A DNA stretch of 50,432 nucleotides from [Collinsella] massiliensis (GTDB lineage: Bacteria > Actinomycetota > Coriobacteriia > Coriobacteriales > Coriobacteriaceae): the NCBI GenBank assembly GCA_000333815.1, contig CAPI01000087.1, positions 1 through 50,432 of the forward strand. Reading direction: 5' to 3'. Each line of letters begins with the position of its first letter. The first letter of the stretch is position 1. Under the pieces are notes generated by a model, which saw only the letters and a list, made by a program, of their open reading frames with translations, did not search any database and was not told the DNA's origin. The position numbers and the translations under genes are program-made. Of this stretch, positions 45,352 through 46,722 are shown one piece after another.

Positions 45352-46722
45352 CTAGATGATGAACCGGATGATGTCGTTTCTGAGCACGTAGACGAAGAGC
45401 GCGATGAACAGCGCGACGCCCACGTACGAGATGATCGTCTGCGCCCTGAGGGGCACCTCGCGGCGCGTGATTGCCTGGATGATTTCGATGAGGAGCTTGC
45501 CGCCGTCGAGCGGTGGGATGGGCAGCAGGTTCATGAGGCCGAGCGAGAACGAGATGAGCGCCGCGAGGGTGAGGAAGGTCGTCGGTCCGGCGGCGGCCGC
45601 CTGAGCCGACATGACCGAGATGCCCACCACCGAGGTCGAGCTATCGAGCATCTGGAGCGTCTGCGCAGGGTTGAAGAGCTGCGCGATGCCGCGAGCCGTC
45701 TCAGCGATGTAGCTCCACGAGAGCCGTGCCGAATCAATCGGGTTCAAGCGCACGCGCTCGTAGGAGACGCTCACGCCGAGCGCCTCATCGGGGTCGAGTG
45801 CGACCTCTACCTGCTCGCGCTCACCATCGTGCCTGAAGACGACCTCGAAGGGCTCCCCGTCCTCGCGGGCGCGGGCAATCGCGTTCACGATGTCCTCCCA
45901 TGTCTCCGTTTCGGTACCGTCGATCGAGTAGACGGTGTCGCCGGGGGCGATGCCGGCCTCCTCGGCGACGGAGCCCGCCTCGACGCCGCCGATGACGTTC
46001 ACGTTCTGCGCGACATCGATCCCGACGAGCGAGTAGATGCTCATGATGAGGACAAAGCCCGACAGAAGGTTCACGAAGATGCCGGCGACGAGCATGATGA
46101 CCCGCGGGAAGAACCCCTTGCCCATATAGGTGCGCGAGCGTTCCGCCGCTAGAAATTCCTCATCCGACATGGGCGGATCCCAGGGTTCGTCCTGGACGGT
46201 CGCCGACGCGCGGTCGAAGTGCCTGCCGTCGAGCAACGTCGCCCCATGCGCATCGCGCGGCATAGCGGCGTAGGTCGTGGCATAGCGCGAGCCGCCCTCG
46301 TACTCCCCCTGCTCCGGGTCGTATACGGGCGCCACGGAGCCCCACTCGGCGAGCTGAATGCAGGCATCGAGCGCCTCGTCCTCGGTGATGCCGAGTTCCT
46401 CGGCCAGCTCCCCCACCGTGCAACTGCCGCGCCGATGCACGAGGCCGAGGACGGCGGCCGCGTATTCGCTCGTGGCGGGATCCATGCCGCAGATCATGGC
46501 ATAGCCGCCCAGGAGCAGTGGCGTCACGCCGAAGCGCGTGCCGTTGCGCTTCGAGACGAAGCTCAGCCGCCAGCGGCACGGAAGCCCGAGGAAATACTCG
46601 GTCACCCGCACACCGAAGGCGCGTGCCGCAAGGTAGTGCCCGCCCTCATGGACGAACACCAGGGCGGACAGGAGCACGAGCCCCCAGAACGCCGTGGTAA
46701 CAAAGGAGATGAGCGCCTGCAT
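45352..46722 (-). CDS. rseP: RseP-type M50 site-2 protease with a large insertion
   Basis: RseP-type proteases cut membrane-anchored regulators and signal-peptide remnants. The 456-residue protein has His-Glu-Gly-Gly-His in the first helix (25-29) and one PDZ domain (about 240-315). Pro-Pro-Leu-Asp-Gly-Gly lies near 403-408, with a final membrane helix. Between Gly-Gly-Tyr (72-74) and the second helix (about 205-228), where relatives have a short loop, there are about 115 extra residues. Residues 86-130 of these read like a small winged helix (Leu-Gly-Leu-Val-His, Thr-Val-Gly-Glu-Leu-Ala, Gly-Ile-Thr-Glu-Asp-Glu-Ala). The dxr-rseP-ispG order is typical. Confidence 0.92.
   Translation of the reverse strand: MQALISFVTTAFWGLVLLSALVFVHEGGHYLAARAFGVRVTEYFLGLPCRWRLSFVSKRNGTRFGVTPLLLGGYAMICGMDPATSEYAAAVLGLVHRRGSCTVGELAEELGITEDEALDACIQLAEWGSVAPVYDPEQGEYEGGSRYATTYAAMPRDAHGATLLDGRHFDRASATVQDEPWDPPMSDEEFLAAERSRTYMGKGFFPRVIMLVAGIFVNLLSGFVLIMSIYSLVGIDVAQNVNVIGGVEAGSVAEEAGIAPGDTVYSIDGTETETWEDIVNAIARAREDGEPFEVVFRHDGEREQVEVALDPDEALGVSVSYERVRLNPIDSARLSWSYIAETARGIAQLFNPAQTLQMLDSSTSVVGISVMSAQAAAAGPTTFLTLAALISFSLGLMNLLPIPPLDGGKLLIEIIQAITRREVPLRAQTIISYVGVALFIALFVYVLRNDIIRFII

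Follow-up and report, generated by a model that had tools for sequence, protein, structure and literature searches.

A predicted winged-helix domain between the MRE beta segment and TM2 of the site-2 protease RseP in Coriobacteriia

The window analysed here, a stretch of 50,432 nucleotides from [Collinsella] massiliensis, carries on its minus strand a run of genes comprising frr, uppS, cdsA, dxr, rseP, ispG and proS, as read from the list of open reading frames. Only rseP was scanned against protein families, whereas the other six genes were named by reading their translations. The rseP gene (45352..46722, minus strand, as are all features given below) codes for a site-2 protease (M50B) of 456 amino acids, which matches Peptidase_M50 with an E-value of 2e-41 and TIGR00054 with 164.8 bits (cut-off 147.55), and is the single RseP match in the source genome. 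A search of the sequence flanking rseP for sigma-70-type promoters and for terminators gave no hit, a result that carries little weight.

The window RseP contains the parts of a group I site-2 protease, namely the zinc motifs, an MRE beta segment, TM2, one PDZ domain and C-terminal helices. TM1 carries the zinc motif HEGGH at residues 25-29 (46636..46650), and an NLLPIPPLDGG motif, in which PLDGG corresponds to residues 404-408, occupies residues 398-408 (45499..45531). In the alignment of RseP orthologues, H25, E26, H29, N398, P401, D406 and G407 are invariant. The MRE beta segment with its GGY (residues 40-77, 46492..46605), which is named by homology (PMC4597795), is made up in the AlphaFold2 model of strands at residues 40-45, 53-56, 63-66 and 73-77. 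The same model places TM2 at residues 204-233 (46024..46113), and the extracytoplasmic PDZ domain is located at residues 240-315 (45778..46005; Pfam PDZ_6, E 3.5e-9; Z 14.0 to 6icc_A). The protein thus combines HExxH and LDG motifs, an MRE beta segment and a PDZ domain with a TIGR00054 score above the cut-off, as expected for RseP, and its full model aligns with the best-matching RseP structures at Z 22.8-24.8.

Directly after the MRE beta segment and before TM2, the window RseP possesses around 117 extra residues (residues 80-196, 46135..46485), in columns that hold 8-24 residues in the first-aligned RseP proteins from outside Coriobacteriia, including those of Clostridia, Sphingomonas, Rhodospirillaceae and other outgroups. 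The original prediction, made from the sequence alone, had placed an extra insert between the beta segment and the second helix at 46135-46480, and the alignment confirms this insert with boundaries that agree within a codon or two. Known RseP topology places the region from the MRE beta segment to TM2 in the cytoplasm (PMC4597795, PMC9672952), from which it would follow that the insert lies on the cytoplasmic side. Two AlphaFold2 models, together with fold searches and a profile comparison, point to a winged-helix domain at residues 88-153 (46264..46461). The full-length model, for which an alignment of 48 orthologues was used as input, reached a pLDDT of 91 and a pTM of 0.86, with pLDDT values of 88-98 for the block of residues 88-153, and the same winged helix was obtained when the insert was modelled alone (pLDDT 85, pTM 0.80). 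The predicted order of elements is a1-b1-a2-a3-b2-wing-b3, with helices at residues 88-98, 103-110 and 114-126 and strands at residues 100-102, 130-133 and 150-153, the wing being located between the last two strands. A winged helix had been anticipated at residues 86-130; the fold was recovered in both models, but the domain is longer because the wing belongs to it. The predicted winged helix is confident and is neither disordered nor a simple loop, and a disordered loop or a frame error is ruled out by these models and by the conserved full-length orthologues. The domain is followed by a tail or linker of lower confidence (residues 154-186, 46165..46263; pLDDT 76-79 over residues 161-180), which is shorter in Eggerthellaceae and other orders, and then by a short helix before TM2 (residues 187-195, 46138..46164), which according to the model and per-position counts runs into the conserved E194-R195..T198-Y199.

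When the insert alone was used for fold searches, many winged helices were retrieved at Z 6.4-7.7, all below 8, and comparison with a profile of MarR domains from related genomes gave an E-value of 7e-6 and a probability of 84.5. Pfam HTH matches were weak and under their curated cut-offs, as for MarR_2, where the insert scored 19.1 bits against a cut-off of 27. Most of the neighbours in fold space are winged helices that bind DNA. The fold is shared with the winged helices of MarR, TrmB, FtsK gamma and SelB, and protein-binding winged helices are also found, namely ESCRT-II in the structural and DDRGK1/UFL1 in the profile searches. No winged-helix family stood out as a specific match in the structure and profile searches, and no paralogue or donor of the domain was detected within the source genome at E 1. 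Many weak fold matches combined with a similarity to MarR profiles indicate that the fold is well supported and that no single winged-helix family can be named. The presence of a predicted winged helix at residues 88-153 of the insert is therefore well supported.

A profile spanning the winged helix and TM2 was used to survey sampled genomes. It matched 249 of the 258 Coriobacteriia genomes, and 228 of the 231 of good quality. As four weak matches from one family (G072, G097, G100 and G103), which were read individually, lack the winged helix, about 245 of the 258 genomes carry the insert. Among the Coriobacteriia matches listed, the alignments run from model position 1 or 2 to positions 137-141; the other E-values in the genome table lie below about 1e-22, whereas matches to TM2 only range from 1e-7 to 1e-11. 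Among 396 genomes sampled across the phylum, the 38 Coriobacteriia matched over the whole profile, whereas the other actinobacterial matches, among those listed, begin beyond the winged-helix core, at position 63 or further on. Few matches came from two further phyla with 299 genomes each, one of Bacillota type and the other that of a Sphingomonas-like genome (Pseudomonadota), and they start at position 83 or later, with E-values of 1e-8. These surveys are samples, which outside the class cover the matches that pass the E-value limits, and among those sampled, none of the RseP matches from other Actinomycetota, the Bacillota-type phylum or Pseudomonadota contains the winged helix. The winged helix in RseP is a class-wide feature of Coriobacteriia, present in nearly all of its members. 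Genome G042 from the family survey, which is 95% complete and one of the nine genomes that the profile did not match, gave no RseP match at all, probably due to an assembly gap.

The site itself varies in other ways. One Coriobacteriia orthologue (L209, genome G1212) has an insert of 160 residues, the tail of which contains a repeated Ala-Pro-rich stretch (PAAPAAGSAPAAPA). In other Actinomycetota, L212 (G515) carries at the same site an unrelated insert of around 79 residues without the winged-helix motif, and L213 (G374) and L214 (G536) have acidic linkers of 43-47 residues. RasP of Bacilli has its own insert at the MRE beta-TM2 site, and to our knowledge no winged helix has been reported in that region of RasP. 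The stretch that links the MRE beta segment to TM2 in RseP appears to be a hotspot for insertions.

Winged helix and PDZ domain are distributed differently within the class. The four RseP proteins without the winged helix (family f6: L205, L208, L210 and L211) possess the PDZ domain and have a linker of 18-19 residues in place of the winged helix. In these proteins, low-complexity sequence lengthens the region after the PDZ domain. The reverse is seen in the Slackia-type family f3 (L096-L102, L122-L132 and L209), in which the PDZ domain is missing, with 9-10 residues in its place in the orthologues measured, while the winged helix and both zinc motifs are kept; we refer to this family as Eggerthellaceae, a label that rests on the Slackia records and the shared architecture. 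One of the Slackia proteins, L102, falls marginally short of the cut-off of the NCBI RseP model (146.9 versus 147.55). From a short open reading frame it had seemed that Eggerthellaceae lack the insert, which is wrong, as the PDZ domain is missing instead and the insert is kept. The two families taken together indicate that the two domains are separable. When a phylogeny was built from the protease core, the domain-less genomes fell together with carriers into a clade that comprises 16 members, has 100% support and is nested inside Coriobacteriia. The simplest history is one early gain in the class, followed by one or two losses; since Coriobacteriia as a whole have low support on the single-gene RseP tree (54), other histories are formally possible.

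The winged helix is under purifying selection. In a comparison of up to 16 closely related species from a single genus, dN/dS was lowest for TM1 and the MRE segment (0.022), intermediate for the winged helix (0.041) and highest for the PDZ domain (0.080); since synonymous rates vary among the regions, this ranking deserves more trust than the individual values. The mean identity among orthologues is 0.36 for the winged helix, similar to that of the PDZ domain (0.34). Among 95 non-redundant orthologues, residue 124 is a leucine in all and residue 127 a tryptophan in 88. W127 and G128 (46339..46344) follow helix 3, and in MarR domains the position that corresponds to W127, immediately ahead of the glycine that ends the helix, is variable.

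The original prediction had raised the possibility that the domain senses DNA, RNA or a protein and gates the protease, or recruits a transcription factor. Of these, sensing of a protein or gating may apply, while the analysis gave no specific support for RNA binding or for recruitment of a transcription factor. A fold shared with the MarR, TrmB, FtsK gamma and SelB winged helices and the MarR profile similarity (E 7e-6) are in line with a role in binding DNA or RNA, by which RseP activity would be tethered to the nucleoid or a transcript. However, the charge of the domain argues against this. Per-position counts and charge counts identify helix 3 (residues 113-126, 46345..46386) as acidic: it contains on average 4.1 acidic and 0.5 basic (Lys/Arg) residues in 30 orthologues, a net charge of -3.6, compared to 2.0 acidic and 2.3 basic (Lys/Arg) residues and a net charge of +0.37 in 27 MarR_2 domains of related genomes. 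The net charge of the winged-helix core is -4.7 in the insert and -0.15 in the MarR_2 controls. In addition, the D-R-R type wing, which is found in most of the 27 controls, is absent from the insert, which thus lacks both the basic or polar recognition-helix contacts and the wing of MarR proteins. MarR-type dimerisation helices are not predicted in the insert either. The acidic helix 3 and the missing D-R-R wing speak against canonical DNA binding and for contact with a protein or membrane. Measured against the MarR_2 controls from the same bacteria, DNA sensing in the canonical mode is disfavoured, and the near-invariant tryptophan at a position that is normally variable points the same way. 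Binding of DNA via another face may be compatible with the acidic charge. Overall, we regard a nucleic-acid-binding role as improbable.

We propose, with a confidence only a little above even, that the insert is a cytosolic protein-binding domain, which grips substrates or a partner and adds to or replaces the filter step of the PDZ domain. In such a mechanism, the winged helix grafted between the MRE beta substrate clamp and TM2, presumably in the cytosol, would bind protein, not DNA. At the active-site mouth, it could take hold of a regulatory partner or of the cytosolic part of a membrane substrate, such as the cytosolic domain of an anti-sigma factor. The extracytoplasmic PDZ filter would thereby be complemented by a step of selection or gating in the cytoplasm or, in Eggerthellaceae, be replaced by it. 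While the fold and distribution rest on structure prediction and survey, we infer the steps from fold to binding and from binding to gating. A grip or gate is supported by the position of the insert in the model, directly after an MRE beta strand and before TM2, by the two confident winged-helix models, and by a distribution that covers nearly the whole class and none of the other lineages sampled. Further support comes from the acidic helix 3, the conservation of L124 and W127, the low dN/dS, the retention of the domain where the PDZ domain is lost, the protein-binding winged helices among its neighbours, and the precedents of SpoIVFB and RasP described below. Against it, at least four genomes from a single deep family of Coriobacteriia do without the domain, and its fold neighbours, all of them weak matches, are mostly DNA-binding. 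One might further speculate, more tentatively, that a cytoplasmic gate works beside the PDZ filter, with the PDZ domain replaced in Eggerthellaceae, so that cleavage would be controlled from the inside by a protein signal.

With the MRE beta segment and TM2 as its neighbours, the domain could also be a structural spacer or lid, which sits against the cytosolic side of the protease and stabilises it or shields the mouth of the active site without a separate partner, and the site accepts other inserts, such as the approximately 79 residues in G515 and the acidic linkers of approximately 45 residues in G374 and G536. However, a dN/dS of 0.04 and the near-invariant L124 and W127 imply more than a neutral spacer, and a mere lid would not need a winged helix retained throughout the class, so that we consider this explanation doubtful, if clearly less so than binding to nucleic acid. 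That the domain is simply the relic of one ancestral insertion with no present role could account for genera that lack it and yet retain RseP, but this seems highly unlikely for a domain that is retained in nearly all sampled genomes with a dN/dS of about 0.04 and an identity of 0.36, compared to 0.34 for the PDZ domain. A protein-binding grip or gate is therefore favoured over a structural lid and over nucleic-acid binding.

No RseP with a winged helix was found in the open-licence literature, in agreement with the original prediction that such a protein is undescribed, and neither was a paper treating both RseP and Coriobacteriia; RseP of these gut bacteria, such as Collinsella, Olsenella and Slackia, appears to be little studied. 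MarR, TrmB and FtsK gamma share the fold and a weak profile similarity with the insert, whereas the insert differs from MarR-type winged helices in its acidic helix 3, the lack of a D-R-R wing and its location inside a membrane protease. ESCRT-II subunits and DDRGK1-UFL1, which share the fold, are eukaryotic and score like many unrelated winged helices. The group I protease RasP from Bacillus subtilis, in an integrative model with EcsA (9a6w), is the top structural match of the window RseP (Z 24.8 over 366 residues), tied with Escherichia coli RseP (7w6x; Z 24.1 over 336 aligned residues), and the activity of RasP depends on the ABC transporter EcsAB (PMC7478892). E. coli RseP shares the HExxH and LDG motifs, the MRE beta segment, TM2 and a PDZ region with the window protein, and its MRE beta strand contacts the substrate (PMC4597795). 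However, it contains a PDZ tandem and no described winged helix (PMC10202637), whereas the window RseP has one PDZ domain and the insert. Group III offers a precedent for an added domain in the cytosol, as the cytosolic CBS domain of B. subtilis SpoIVFB contacts, and can be cross-linked to, the soluble part of Pro-sigmaK (PMC9042235). The SpoIVFB domain has a CBS fold, is C-terminal and belongs to another subgroup, and it is by analogy that the winged helix might contact a substrate. A review of site-2 proteases lists extracytoplasmic PDZ domains in group I and CBS domains in group III as extra domains and does not mention a winged helix (PMC10202637). A cytosolic winged helix in RseP throughout a class, kept in one branch after the loss of PDZ, would represent a third arrangement of site-2 proteases, and the PDZ-less branch would provide a natural experiment on the need for a PDZ filter.
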